A stretch of DNA of 64,000 nucleotides from Acinetobacter populi. Lineage in GTDB: Bacteria; Pseudomonadota; Gammaproteobacteria; Pseudomonadales; Moraxellaceae. Positions 55,508-61,284 of this stretch are shown here, piece by piece. The notes under the pieces were generated by a model, which saw only the letters and a list, made by a program, of their open reading frames with translations, searched no databases and was not told the origin of the DNA. A program made the translations under genes and the position numbers. The stretch lies in assembly GCF_002174125.1 (NCBI RefSeq), contig NZ_NEXX01000006.1, positions 62,001 through 126,000 on the forward strand, given 5' to 3'. The first letter of the stretch is position 1. Each line of letters opens with the position of its first letter.

Positions 55508-55924
55508 TTAGGATTTTGGCTCATATATTGACAAACTATCACCTATATAGGATTGATAATGCTTAAAATCCTGATCTAATGTAAAAACCTCTAATCGCTG
55601 CCGTACAGCAATAGCACAGATTAGAAAATCAATATGTGACCCTTGAATACCATGTCTACGGCATTGATTATAGAATTGTGCTGCACATTCATAATCTTGG
55701 GTAATCACGTCTATATCTTTAAAAATACTTAATTTATTTTTTAATTTTTGAAATTGTAACTCATCACGAATACCACTTAATATTTCCTGTCGTATAGCAC
55801 CAATCACAACCACCTTGCCATTTAAAATAAGTTCTGATAACTCAGTAATAATATGCATGTCCGTATTTGTTTTTTGCTTTTTTCGAAAAGCCAGTGACCA
55901 AATTGAGGTATCAACTAAAATCAT
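55508..55924 (-). CDS. VapC-type PIN-domain toxin
   Basis: Ribonuclease toxin, 138 residues. PIN acidic residues are visible: Asp5 in ILVDTSIW, Glu in IRQEILSG, and Asp in SHIDFLIC plus LDQDF. The MILVDTSIWSLAFRKK start is typical of VapC. It overlaps the antitoxin gene by 14 bases. The pair sits between bioF and bioD on the same strand, where bioC lies in many gammaproteobacteria. Confidence 0.92.
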   Translation of the reverse strand: MILVDTSIWSLAFRKKQKTNTDMHIITELSELILNGKVVVIGAIRQEILSGIRDELQFQKLKNKLSIFKDIDVITQDYECAAQFYNQCRRHGIQGSHIDFLICAIAVRQRLEVFTLDQDFKHYQSYIGDSLSIYEPKS

Positions 55925-56123
55925 GAGGTCGCTGTCTCATCATTTTATAATCATAATCTTCATCTATATCTATCGTATTAAATAATTCAATAACTTCCTG
56001 TGCTTGTCTTCTCTGTACAAATTCTCTTAAAGCAAGATCAATCACTTCTTGCGCATTTGACAAATGTCCAAGCTTTATTGCTTCTGCCAGTAAATTCTGG
56101 TCTAAATCAAGATTGATACTCAT
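55911..56123 (-). CDS. VapB-type antitoxin
   Basis: A 70-residue antitoxin from MSINLDLDQNLLAEA; AAGGTC lies directly upstream of the ATG, and the frame open to 56171 is rejected. The N-terminal ribbon-helix-helix-like part is followed by the toxin-binding tail with YDYKMMRQRPHDF. DUF2191-type VapB proteins have this layout. The overlap with vapC indicates coupled translation, and the complex would be expected to repress its own promoter. Confidence 0.88.
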   Translation of the reverse strand: MSINLDLDQNLLAEAIKLGHLSNAQEVIDLALREFVQRRQAQEVIELFNTIDIDEDYDYKMMRQRPHDFS

Positions 56124-56209
56124 GACCTTCGTTTCCTCGAAACAAATATATACGGATACAGAATAGCACATTTGGCAGATATTTTGACAAATGCAGATAT
56201 CGCCCCAAC

Positions 56210-57477: not shown

Positions 57478-57661
57478 AAATTTTTTCTCTGAAAAACAAT
57501 CTAAAAAATGAGTTTCATGGTTTGGATCATTAATATCAATATTCTTCAATAAATGAATGCATTGTCAAACTCACAAAAGCAAGCATTCAGGATAAATCCT
57601 TGTAGCATCTTCTCCTCTCAATGCTTAAAACTTTTCCAAATAAAACGTCCATAACGAATTT

Positions 57662-58504
57662 TTAATTGTCTTGATAAACAAGGTGATACTTATGTTCGCT
57701 CAATGAAATTTGGGCAAATCCCTGTTTTTCTATATGCATTCCTGCTATCAATTGCTTATTTTGCACGACTTCTTGCAAAATCTTTTTCCGTGTACTCGCT
57801 GCCTGTTCTGGATCACAATCAAAAGAAATCGTAATAGAAGGATCTGCTAACTGAATATTTGGAAAATGAATAATATCGCCCCAAATTAAAAGACTTTTAT
57901 CATCTGATTCGACATAAAATCCAGTATGGCCTGGCGTATGCCCCGCAAGCAATCTTGGACGAATCCCTTCAATGATTGGCCTGTGATCAAAAAATTTTAT
58001 GGATTTTGCATAAGCGTGTAAAGTACGCCTTACCAGAGAAAAGTTGCGTTGACCTCGTTCATTTTGGTGCTTGAGTTTTTCATCATCCAACCAATAATCC
58101 ATTTCTAAAGGATGCAGATAAAGATTGGCATTTTTATACCTCACTTGCCCTTCATGATCTAAAAGTCCCCCGATATGATCAGGGTGAGCATGCGTTATAA
58201 GAATAGTATCTATATCATTAGGATTAACCCCGAGTGTCATAAGATTTTCTAAAAGTAATCCTCCAGCACCATTTAAACCGCCAGTACCAGAATCAACCAG
58301 AATAATCCGTCCAGCACCACGAATAAGATAAGCATTAACGTTAATAATAACTGTTTTGACCATTCCTGCCTTATATTGAATTTTCTTTGCCTCAATCGCA
58401 TTAATACCTGACAATAAGTCCAAACTTACTGTCATATCACCATCGTTTAAGACATTCACTAAGAAATGACCAATTTGAAGTGCTGAAAAAGCTTGATTAC
58501 TCAT
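57662..58504 (-). CDS. Metallo-beta-lactamase-fold hydrolase
   Basis: A 280-residue enzyme of the MBL superfamily. Metal ligands are visible: THAHPDHIGG (the HxHxDH motif) near residue 106, the His in LAGHTPGHTGF near 184, an Asp in IWGDIIH, and a final His. Such enzymes open lactones or thioesters; AiiA-type lactonases are relatives, but the substrate is unknown. The start at 58504 has AAGGATATTGTGAG upstream. It is the last of a three-gene operon divergent from a LysR gene. Confidence 0.88.
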   Translation of the reverse strand: MSNQAFSALQIGHFLVNVLNDGDMTVSLDLLSGINAIEAKKIQYKAGMVKTVIINVNAYLIRGAGRIILVDSGTGGLNGAGGLLLENLMTLGVNPNDIDTILITHAHPDHIGGLLDHEGQVRYKNANLYLHPLEMDYWLDDEKLKHQNERGQRNFSLVRRTLHAYAKSIKFFDHRPIIEGIRPRLLAGHTPGHTGFYVESDDKSLLIWGDIIHFPNIQLADPSITISFDCDPEQAASTRKKILQEVVQNKQLIAGMHIEKQGFAQISLSEHKYHLVYQDN

Positions 58505-58521
58505 CTCACAATATCCTTTCA

Positions 58522-58848
58522 TTAATTATAAGCATGGAGCTGTGTAGAATTAAAACCAAAACAACGAATACGTGTAACCAGCCCAGTTTTTTGTAAAATG
58601 GTTTCATTAAGCTTTTGCATAAAATTTTCCATTATTTCCACCGAACGATGATTGGATAAACGATAAATTAATTCGGCATAAACTGGATACCCACAGCCTG
58701 CTTTAACAGGGATATAGTGAATATGTACCTTGTTTAGCTCTGCACCAAGGATATCAATACATAAAGTACAGCAGTTTTGTGTTATATCATTTAGATCAAT
58801 AAACTGATTAAACTGATCTTCAGCAATATAGAAAGTAAGATTTGGCAC
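58522..58848 (-). CDS. Small tautomerase-superfamily-like protein
   Basis: A 108-residue protein from the GTG at 58848, which has AGGAGA 6 bases upstream; the frame open to a TTG at 58866 is rejected. After Met removal the chain begins P-N-L-T-F-Y, a Pro-1 as in 4-oxalocrotonate tautomerase and CHMI-type isomerases. The rest (VHIHYIPVKAGCGYPVYAELIY) has a beta-alpha-beta look. It lies between the alpha/beta-barrel-like and MBL genes with short gaps. Confidence 0.65.
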   Translation of the reverse strand: MPNLTFYIAEDQFNQFIDLNDITQNCCTLCIDILGAELNKVHIHYIPVKAGCGYPVYAELIYRLSNHRSVEIMENFMQKLNETILQKTGLVTRIRCFGFNSTQLHAYN

Positions 58849-58862
58849 TAATTTTCTCCTGT

Positions 58863-59393
58863 TCAATTGTTATCATTTGAACTTTGAAGCTGCTTCGTCA
58901 TCGCTTCATAAAGAATGACACCTTCTTTATTTACATGAAGTTCTGCTTCTTGATGCGGTAAAATATAAGCAACTCGGTATGCAGGAAACTGATCAAGCCC
59001 AACAGCATACATCTCCATTGGCTTATAGTTTTGCTGGGTATGATTAAATTCGATGAGTCCAGTACTGAGTAAAAGTATTTCTTTTTCCATTACAGCTGGA
59101 GCAGCACCTGTAAACGCATATAAATTACGATGCCAATCCGTAATATAGGGTTGCCAAGATGAAAAATTACCCCCGCCTTTTTGCTTGTATTCTTCACTGA
59201 CAATTATTTTTTCATCTTCAATCGTATGAATTGCAAGATAGGCGTGACCTCCCGATGAAATTGCTTTAAACCGCTGGGACGTAAGAAATCCCGTAACAGA
59301 AATTAAAGCCGATAGTTTTTGCCTGCTATAAAAATCATTCCATTCTTCTTCAGTATTTGGATCAGTATAAGTACATTCTACGGTATATAACAT
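58863..59393 (-). CDS. Hypothetical alpha/beta-barrel-like protein (EthD/DUF4286-like)
   Basis: A 176-residue protein. The start at 59393 has GAGG 6 bases upstream. The first half, YTVECTYTDPNTEEEWNDFYSRQKLSALISVTGFLTSQRFK, has the ferredoxin-like pattern of dimeric alpha/beta-barrel proteins; a second, weaker repeat may form the second half. Such proteins are small monooxygenases, decarboxylases or cyclases. First gene of the LysR-linked operon. Confidence 0.6.
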   Translation of the reverse strand: MLYTVECTYTDPNTEEEWNDFYSRQKLSALISVTGFLTSQRFKAISSGGHAYLAIHTIEDEKIIVSEEYKQKGGGNFSSWQPYITDWHRNLYAFTGAAPAVMEKEILLLSTGLIEFNHTQQNYKPMEMYAVGLDQFPAYRVAYILPHQEAELHVNKEGVILYEAMTKQLQSSNDNN

Positions 59394-59487
59394 TTTAGCC
59401 TCGATCAATAACGTTAAAAGAAAATAGCTTTTTATTGAGCTTTAATCATGATAATTCTAATTTTTAGGCCTATAAATCGATAATATT

Positions 59488-59501
59488 TCACTATATAGTG
59501 A
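59488..59501. promoter_or_regulatory. Candidate LysR operator
   Basis: Perfect 14-bp palindrome TCACTATATAGTGA, extended by aatat/atatt. A CTAAT lies 11 bases on, a motif used by GcvA-type regulators. It lies between the divergent LysR gene and the three-gene operon. Confidence 0.55.
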
Positions 59502-59550
59502 TATTTACTCACTAATATTAAGTTTCATATATTCTGTAAAGGTAATAATT

Positions 59551-60459
59551 ATGCGCAAGCACATTCCGAGTAGTAGCTCACTCAAAGTGTTTGAAGCTGC
59601 TGCAAGACATGGCAATTTTGCGAGGGCAGCGGAAGAACTCTCATTAACTGAAGGTGCTGTAAGTCGACAAATTGCACGACTTGAATCTTTTCTCAATCGA
59701 AAATTATTTGATCGAATTGGCAGTCGAGTAAAACTCAATCCTGTTGGTGAACACTATGCACAAAATATTCGTGAGACACTTGATCGTCTTGATAGAGAAA
59801 CTCAATTTATTAAAGGTCTACCCGAAGGAAGTAAAAGTTTGAATATATCTTCTCTGCCCACATTTTCAAGTCGCTGGCTTATCCCACGTTTGGGGAGATT
59901 TAGAGATAAACATCCTGATATTACTGTAAATATCTCAGTAAAAACTGATCCTTACATTCTTGCAGAAAGTGGTTTTGATGCTGCTATTCACTTTGAACAT
60001 CCAGCATGGATTGGTACACATAGACAATTTCTTTTTCAGGAAAATTTAATCCCTGTATGTAATCCCCTGATTTTGGGAAAATCAAAAGCACCTAATCAAC
60101 TGACTAATATTCCATTAATCCACCGGCAACAAAATCCAGAAGCATGGGATAACTATGCTAAAGAAAATGGCATAATATTAAATTATCCTTTTCAGGGTGC
60201 ACGATACGAATTGCATGAAATGGCGATTTCAGCAGCAATAGCTGGTCTGGGAGTTGCACTAGTACCCTCAATATATGTGGAAAAAGAGCTTAATGAAGGC
60301 TCACTTATTGCCCCTTGGCCAGAATCAAAAATACTCAGTAAAAAATTTTGTTTAATAAAATCAGTAGAAACGAGCAGACATGAAAGCACTTTATCCGCTT
60401 TTGAAGATTGGTTAGATACTGAAATTCATAAGTTTAATATCACCAAACACTCCACTTAA
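59551..60459 (+). CDS. LysR-family regulator, GcvA-like
   Basis: A 302-residue regulator. The N-terminal helix-turn-helix reads LKVFEAAARHGNFARAAEELSLTEGAVSRQIARLE, closest to the GcvA/AmpR branch; a substrate-binding domain follows from about residue 90. It is transcribed divergently from the three-gene cassette and very probably controls it. The inducer is unknown. GGTAATAATT precedes the ATG. It ends at a long terminator hairpin. Confidence 0.92.
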   Translation: MRKHIPSSSSLKVFEAAARHGNFARAAEELSLTEGAVSRQIARLESFLNRKLFDRIGSRVKLNPVGEHYAQNIRETLDRLDRETQFIKGLPEGSKSLNISSLPTFSSRWLIPRLGRFRDKHPDITVNISVKTDPYILAESGFDAAIHFEHPAWIGTHRQFLFQENLIPVCNPLILGKSKAPNQLTNIPLIHRQQNPEAWDNYAKENGIILNYPFQGARYELHEMAISAAIAGLGVALVPSIYVEKELNEGSLIAPWPESKILSKKFCLIKSVETSRHESTLSAFEDWLDTEIHKFNITKHST

Positions 60460-60461
60460 AA

Positions 60462-60517
60462 ATTTCCTCATTTTTGATCAAGCGATGAGAGCTGAATCAA
60501 AAATGGGAAATCTTTTT
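60462..60517 (+). terminator. Terminator of the LysR gene
   Basis: A 16-bp stem with a single bulged T (60462-60478 with 60496-60511) followed by T5. It is 3 bases after the LysR stop. Confidence 0.88.
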
Positions 60518-60588
60518 ATTTGACTGTGTTGTGATTTCATTGGGCAATCATAAAAAATTGCTTATACATTTCTTATAGAGCAATCCTG

Positions 60589-61284
60589 CTATCGCAACTT
60601 TGCCAACCATTCCCCCAGCATTTGTACTAATTGCACCAGAATCAGTAACACCACTACAGTTAGAATCACCACACTACTATCAAAACGCTGATAACCATAG
60701 GATACCGCCAGATCACCAATACCACCCGCACCGACAACACCAGCCATAGCCGTTGCACCGATCAAACTAATCGTGGCTGTAGTCAGGTTTAAAATCAGCG
60801 AACTCCGTGCTTCCGGTAAAATAAACCTGAATACGATTTGTGCTGGTGTTGCTCCCATTGCCTGTGCCGATTCAATAATTCCCTCATTAACTTCAAGCAA
60901 AGAAGTTTCAATCAAGCGTCCCATATATGGCCCGATATAAATCGTCAGCGGCACAATTGCCGCCCAAGTGCCAATCGAAGAACCAACTAAAAACTTGGTT
61001 AAGGGAATCACTGCAATCAGCAAAATAATAAACGGTAATGAACGCAGTGCATTAATCAGCGGATTTAAACCATGATAAATCACACGATTGGGTAAAATAC
61101 CTTTGGGACGGGTCAATACCATGGTAATGCCCTGAATAAAGCCCCAAATACCACCAAAAATCATTGCAAAAAATACCATTTGAAAGGTTTCTTGCAAAGC
61201 CGTTACAAACTGATCCATGCTCAGTGAACTTTGCCAGAACTGTGCTGTCACTGCTGTTAACCACTGTACGATTAAATCTCTCAT
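60589..61284 (-). CDS. metI: D-methionine ABC transporter permease
   Basis: Inner-membrane permease of the MetNIQ system for methionine. It has 231 residues and about five helices. The EAA-like loop ESAQAMGATPAQIVFRFILPEA is present. It overlaps metN by 4 bases and is the last gene of the metQNI unit. Confidence 0.94.
   Translation of the reverse strand: MRDLIVQWLTAVTAQFWQSSLSMDQFVTALQETFQMVFFAMIFGGIWGFIQGITMVLTRPKGILPNRVIYHGLNPLINALRSLPFIILLIAVIPLTKFLVGSSIGTWAAIVPLTIYIGPYMGRLIETSLLEVNEGIIESAQAMGATPAQIVFRFILPEARSSLILNLTTATISLIGATAMAGVVGAGGIGDLAVSYGYQRFDSSVVILTVVVLLILVQLVQMLGEWLAKLR

Follow-up and report, generated by a model that had tools for sequence, protein, structure and literature searches.

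A recurrent LysR-linked cassette encoding a predicted barrel protein, a tautomerase-like protein and a metallo-beta-lactamase hydrolase in Acinetobacter populi

Four well-described protein groups are the closest known systems to a cassette of four genes in Acinetobacter populi, which lies in the 64,000-nucleotide stretch that we analysed as our window (contig NZ_NEXX01000006.1, positions 62,001 to 126,000). Its genes encode P1 (a predicted barrel protein), P2 (a tautomerase-like protein), a metallo-beta-lactamase (MBL) hydrolase and a divergent LysR regulator. The MBL protein has the same metal ligands as the group of AidB, dihydrocoumarin hydrolase and methyl parathion hydrolase (5hif, 7y7u, 4o98, 1p9e) and is similar to it over nearly the full length, but it scores below the AidB cut-off, and its gene shares a LysR-linked cassette with those of P1 and P2. 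P2 shares a predicted fold and an invariant N-terminal Pro with the tautomerase superfamily (4-OT, cis-CaaD/Cg10062, MIF), although it has no usable sequence match to it. P1 is predicted to have the same two-half fold as the tandem dimeric alpha/beta-barrel proteins (5f9p, PenE, sulfur oxygenase reductase) at approximately 10% identity, and is set apart from them by a K-G-G-G-(N)-F-x-x-W-Q loop. The LysR protein has the HTH_1 and LysR_substrate domains of GcvA-type regulators, but falls below the GcvA cut-off and has its own operator. Judging by titles and the openings of abstracts, none of the open-access papers listed for our search terms names this cassette.

We found that the four genes and one operator are a recurrent unit. 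The initial annotation had described three co-directional genes, spaced by 14 and 17 bases, opposite a divergent LysR gene, a layout which was correct when the coordinates were rechecked; the uncharacterised cassette, probably a LysR-controlled degradation unit, is real, and the finding is stronger than first stated. As to its role, we see an even chance that this is a self-contained, horizontally mobile, inducible detoxification cassette for a small lactone or enol-lactone-forming compound, the substrate and reactions of which we infer. The features of the locus, in window positions, are as follows.

59393-58863, minus strand: P1 gene, 176 amino acids
58848-58522, minus strand: P2 gene, 108 amino acids
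58504-57662, minus strand: MBL gene, 280 amino acids
59551-60459, plus strand: LysR gene, divergent from P1
58849-58862: gap between P1 and P2, 14 bases
58505-58521: gap between P2 and MBL, 17 bases
59394-59550: divergent promoter/operator region, 157 bases between LysR and P1
59478-59511, minus strand: conserved operator TGAGTAAATATCACTATATAGTGAAATATTATCG, at -118 to -85 relative to the P1 start, putatively protein-binding
57487-60598: complete inserted segment of about 3.1 kb, ends taken from alignment, missing in a sister genome

Four genes and one operator form a recurrent unit

A scan of GTDB species genomes with P1 returned 220 relatives, and the locus rates given here apply to the closest 80 of these, as only the best 80 were fetched. 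A divergent LysR gene adjoined P1 at 79 of the 80 loci and all four genes were intact at 58 (tblastn plus a check of open reading frames, ORFs). The MBL gene was not intact at 5 loci (1 absent, 2 cut by a contig end and 2 truncated) and the LysR gene likewise at 5 (1 absent and 4 broken or partial). The four-gene order recurs across alpha-, beta- and gamma-proteobacteria, and the annotation of six plasmid loci gives the same gene order in different surroundings.

Because P1 had served as the handle, the co-occurrence test was repeated starting from P2 in 200 genomes of the beta-proteobacterial family to which Paraburkholderia fungorum (L041) belongs, with strong matches defined as E below 1e-60 for P1 and below 1e-30 for P2. 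Strong P1 matches were found at 42 places in 40 genomes, including one contig-end fragment and one copy with an internal stop, and strong P2 matches at 28 places in 27 genomes, while two further P2 matches were weak (6e-9 and 3e-7). All but one of the strong P2 matches (27/28) had a P1 match on the same strand no more than 38 bases away; the 28th, at L134, sits between MBL and LysR genes from which P1 has gone. Conversely, 15 of the 42 strong P1 places had no adjoining strong P2. This family also contains a second, diverged cassette clade (L125-L131), whose P1 proteins score 204-215 bits with the first model and which has the same four genes at 7/7 loci. Conservation together elsewhere had been set beforehand as the test of the initial annotation, and the genes proved to be kept together from either starting point. 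Two genomes, G162 and G193, carry two full-length P1 matches each.

The gap between LysR and P1 contains a recurrent 34-base element, TGANYAAATRTCACTRAAGNNTGANNTTATATCG, with 29 specified positions. This operator was found with 0-8 mismatches of 29 in 88 of 89 upstream regions (a set which includes two duplicate pairs), at -131 to -108 relative to the P1 start, and the best of 1,780 mononucleotide shuffles had 9 mismatches. The only failure, with 15 mismatches, was L020, which is also the sole locus without LysR. In this genome, Rahnella victoriana, P1 is found alone and LysR, P2, MBL and the operator are all absent. The weakest copies are of alpha-proteobacterial type, with 6 mismatches in L082 and L088 and 8 in L007-L009, and lie in the same place. 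It should be noted that the pattern was first recognised on visual inspection of 81 upstream stretches, in 18 of them, before it was tested on the 89 regions, which makes that test partly circular because the pattern came from 18 of those sequences. The diverged clade, which was unused in defining the pattern, therefore provides a clean test: at 7/7 loci nothing in the entire 13-14 kb locus matched better than the operator, which lies at -130 or -134 and has 5-8 mismatches, whereas the best of 200 shuffles of each region had 10-12. The locus which has lost P1 (L134) retains the operator with 3 mismatches.

The operator is newly described here, and the LysR protein presumably sits on it. This protein matches HTH_1 (69.1 bits) and LysR_substrate (90.1 bits), both above the Pfam cut-offs, and its nearest model is GcvA (NF008352) at 251 bits, under the cut-off of 288; the annotation around six plasmid copies shows no glycine-cleavage gene. 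In the genome of A. populi, a 16-position core of the operator matches exactly at this locus alone; no place differs from it at one position, and 13 places differ at two. The scores of a classical T-N11-A LysR box were scattered, and this alternative was rejected.

Among 2,620 flanking ORFs at 86 loci, the commonest families were further LysR regulators (28 loci), SDR-like proteins (17) and ABC ATPases (14), and every other family was found at 10 loci or fewer; the family names are our reading of the sequences by eye. No transporter or downstream metabolic gene recurred beside most copies. The lack of recurrent neighbour families favours detoxification over a nutrient pathway or biosynthesis, although not decisively. 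A catabolic module, in which an aromatic or lactone from plants or soil would be used as a nutrient and reach central metabolism through the same three steps, would fit the soil or plant origin of several plasmid carriers, and ring-cleavage pathways include dimeric alpha/beta-barrel isomerases, Pro-1 tautomerases and lactone hydrolases. However, no ring-cleavage dioxygenase, CoA ligase, dehydrogenase or transporter is found beside most copies (the SDR-like family, at 17/86 loci, comes closest) and the cassette is sporadic in the genus, with 2 of 59 other genomes carrying it, so we consider this reading unlikely.

The flanks also bear on whether the genes are merely neighbours by chance, without a shared function. 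LysR genes are common, and the further ones in the flanks of 28/86 loci illustrate this, but the order and operator are conserved across three classes and the nearest relatives of the whole unit are found across class borders. Chance clustering was rejected on the conserved order, the P2-based co-occurrence and the operator, and we give it next to no credence.

Similarities and predicted folds of the cassette proteins

The MBL protein matches PF00753 with 84.7 bits (gathering cut-off 22.7) and aligns nearly end to end with PDB entries (phmmer E 1e-38 to 1e-44; profile E down to 1.6e-69), including a reconstructed dihydrocoumarin hydrolase, methyl parathion hydrolase, organophosphorus hydrolase and N-acyl homoserine lactone (AHL) lactonase. 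The motifs HxHxDH and GHTxGH, an Asp and the last His, which we take to be the MBL metal ligands, were invariant in 9/9 proteins including that of the window and aligned with those of the PDB relatives; HxHxDH was found in 85 of 87 MBL ORFs. The third gene does encode an MBL hydrolase, as the initial annotation had said, and its nearest enzymes are lactonases and phosphotriesterases. One report describes hydrolysis of the fungal lactone patulin by a bacterial AHL lactonase (PMC8537011), and another gives organophosphates, aryl esters and lactones as substrates of methyl parathion hydrolase (PMC5052733).

In a quorum-quenching reading of the cassette, the MBL protein would be an AHL lactonase, and P1 and P2 would act on related signals. 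The best NCBIfam model of the MBL protein is indeed AidB (NF047979; 212 bits, E 9e-63) and it is named “putative quorum-quenching lactonase YtnP” in the plasmid record OW966981.1. These scores are far under the curated cut-offs of AidB (360 bits) and YtnP (425 bits), the protein also strongly resembles organophosphate and dihydrocoumarin hydrolases, and neither P1 nor P2 would be needed for the opening of AHLs. The name AHL lactonase was dropped as the identity of the protein for its scores under these cut-offs, and quorum quenching was retained as a rival to detoxification which we regard as rather improbable.

P1 had no Pfam, NCBIfam or PDB match at sequence level. The structure model, made from an alignment of the window protein and 45 relatives (mean pLDDT 90.3), predicts a tandem dimeric alpha/beta barrel with two ferredoxin-like halves across the full length. 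The best Foldseek match of this model was 5f9p, an anthrone oxidase-like protein (E 7.9e-5, TM 0.56, identity 11%); with a structural aligner, 5f9p (Z 11.3) was tied with the sulfur oxygenase reductase 6qpa (Z 11.6, 165 residues, 3.4 A). The named residues of the K-G-G-G-(N)-F-x-x-W-Q loop, apart from the N, are invariant in the P1 family alignment. The dimeric alpha/beta-barrel class covers oxygenases, isomerases and cyclases, and also non-enzymes. Among the matches listed, the fold neighbours of P1 included the anthrone oxidase-like protein, the monooxygenase PenE and olivetolic acid cyclase, and these predicted resemblances would suit a tailoring or biosynthetic unit which makes a host metabolite instead of destroying a foreign one. 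No synthase or scaffold-building family was found among the 16 commonest neighbour families as read by eye, however, and the cassette is located in unrelated genomic places, which makes this reading very unlikely beside that of detoxification.

The public label of P1 in L004, L005, L006, L007 and L008 is “sugar ABC transporter”. This label, found in 6 of the 20 plasmid records listed, fits neither the size of P1 nor its predicted fold. A longer and weaker protein family, found in 37 of the 200 genomes of the P2-based test, matches P1 mostly at residues 10-71, with 29-42 bits in that scan and 37-43 in further comparisons; the nearest Pfam family of these proteins is DUF4286, with a score under the cut-off (examples are L132 6446-7123 and L133 6515-7276).

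P2 likewise had no meaningful Pfam, NCBIfam or PDB sequence match, and Pfam Tautomerase (PF01361) gave no match for the window protein and matched only 3 of 37 family members (best E 0.0033). A model from an alignment of the window protein and 36 relatives (mean pLDDT 90.3) is predicted to have the beta-alpha-beta fold of the Pro-1 tautomerase superfamily, with a Foldseek match to 7yxv (E 3.9e-7, TM 0.75) and a Cg10062 entry as the best match of the structural aligner (Z 14.0, 103 residues, 2.4 A). The N-terminal Pro is the catalytic residue in this superfamily. In P2 it is invariant in 37/37 aligned members, and 70 of 73 P2 ORFs match the scripted start pattern, with the remaining 3 also starting Met-Pro; the window gene itself has a GTG start codon with Pro as the second codon and a ribosome-site-like AGGAG immediately upstream. 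Structure prediction and fold search therefore bear out the early guesses of an alpha/beta barrel for the first protein, which is predicted to be a tandem dimeric one, and of a tautomerase for the second.

P2 is also the gene which is most often missing. It was not intact at 17 of the 80 loci (13 absent and 4 broken, by tblastn and ORF check) and for this reason looks dispensable in some lineages. In a cassette tree built by a quick method it was missing or broken in 16 of 87 rows, with at least 12 state changes by parsimony. Parsimony itself cannot distinguish loss from gain, but loss is favoured because remnants of P2 are present at L042, L056 and L077; the frameshift which disrupts P2 in L054 could be a sequencing error.

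Arrival and movement of the cassette

In a sister genome which lacks the segment (L121, genome G014), window positions 57486 and 60599 sit 18 bases apart and the aligned flanks have 91-95% DNA identity. The insert is positioned between bioF and metI, the names of the bio and met genes being our reading of the ORFs. Its GC content is 35.4%, against 40.6% and 41.8% in the flanks, and third-position GC is 22-27% in its genes against approximately 40% in bioF, metI and metN. Besides the 2 of 59 other genomes of the genus that have the cassette, none of 36 genomes sampled elsewhere in the order carried it; the cassettes of those two genomes (G054 and G040) are identical to L017, from A. calcoaceticus DSM 30006, and L021, from Acinetobacter sp. 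WU_MDCI_Axc73, in the compared P1, MBL and LysR columns, and may come from the same genomes. The empty site alone cannot distinguish gain from loss, but composition and rarity favour gain, so that the cassette is probably a later arrival, as had been proposed. The accompanying claim that it interrupts the bio genes held in part: the insert is at the bioF/metI junction, but it did not enter an intact bio operon, since in the sister genome (L121, 3657-9426) metQ-metN-metI already separate bioA from bioF in the absence of the cassette. A more distant genus-mate has the order bioA-bioF-bioC-bioD.

No transposase was found in the insert and the junction ends match over 6-8 bases at most. Carriage as cargo of a transposon or integrase was rejected, as no ORF was recognised in the 3.1-kb insert beyond the four genes and there were no longer matching ends. 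Between bioF and bioD, at window positions 55508-56126, there is a VapB antitoxin/PIN-domain pair; at this position the genus-mate L123 has a methyltransferase, which we read as BioC, and the sister genome L121 has the same PIN gene. The BioC profile had no match above its cut-off in the A. populi genome, and only 1 of 14 control genomes passes this cut-off either.

Relatives of P1 were found in 31 plasmid records, and the protein matches include nine Klebsiella plasmid records; several of the plasmid carriers originate from soil or plants. Four other Acinetobacter loci, L005, L013, L017 and L021, match the window in the cassette alone, their flanking DNA being different except for one metQ-like stretch in L017 (70% identical). 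For the Klebsiella plasmid copy L009, the three nearest copies in all four proteins were from Agrobacterium/Rhizobium, and the Rhodanobacter copy was nearest in all four to copies from Burkholderiales, which are beta-proteobacterial. Five Klebsiella pneumoniae plasmids (H21-H25), four from people or sputum and one from wastewater, carry cassettes which are 99.5-100% identical. The copies on the four plasmids from people or sputum are 100.0% identical, which suggests that the cassette is still moving. Klebsiella-type cassette DNA had no match in E. coli genomes in megablast mode. Viral carriage was rejected, as no relative was found in viral_contigs by a single-protein query which reaches close relatives only. 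The genes near the cassette in L009 include a class A beta-lactamase, two VOC-family genes and one acetyltransferase.

Proposed function of the cassette

In the detoxification reading, LysR on the operator would bind a small compound entering from outside, or something formed from this compound, and would then switch on the three genes. P1 would then oxidise or isomerise the compound without a cofactor, the MBL enzyme would hydrolyse the lactone (or enol-lactone/ester) bond, and P2 would accelerate the enol-keto shift of the ring-opened product. The same shift may also occur spontaneously, which would explain why P2 is lost while P1, MBL and LysR mostly remain. The three-gene pathway of the initial annotation is kept in modified form: the genes stay together, with the predicted folds and the MBL enzyme as guessed, but the tautomerase step would not be strictly required, because the P2 gene is often lost.

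Several points weigh against this reading. P2 is lost more often than would be expected of a core step, and the order of the steps is one that we infer by chemical reasoning. A lactone is the likely but not certain substrate of the MBL enzyme, because its PDB relatives are labelled as AHL lactonase, dihydrocoumarin hydrolase and organophosphorus hydrolases. That P1 is a cofactor-free oxygenase or isomerase is only a guess, because the predicted fold match is distant and the class is functionally mixed. The pairwise distances of the four proteins correlate across 72 loci (Spearman 0.86-0.93), a comparison which has no control gene. The 8 mismatches of the operators in L007-L009 are close to the 9 of the best shuffle. 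Finally, when 3 mismatches are allowed over its 16 positions, the operator core has at least 150 matches in the A. populi genome and the reversed pattern 88, because of which LysR may have other targets in this genome and control a wider regulon.

A more specific version of the detoxification reading, which we hold tentatively and at somewhat less than an even chance, is that the cassette is a mobile defence, coupled to its operator and directed at one specific lactone with an antimicrobial or signalling role, or at a quinone-type precursor, which plant- and fungus-associated bacteria encounter. P1 would then represent an unnamed family of cofactor-free barrel enzymes, and the cassette would have been spread by plasmids, lately into Klebsiella pneumoniae. 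P1 belongs to a widespread family without a Pfam, NCBIfam or solved-structure sequence match, and its sharing of an operator with a lactonase-type enzyme gives a functional handle on this family. The inducer can be found with a reporter screen based on the operator and, if the defence reading is true, the dedicated LysR operator would be a ready-made sensor for finding the compound.

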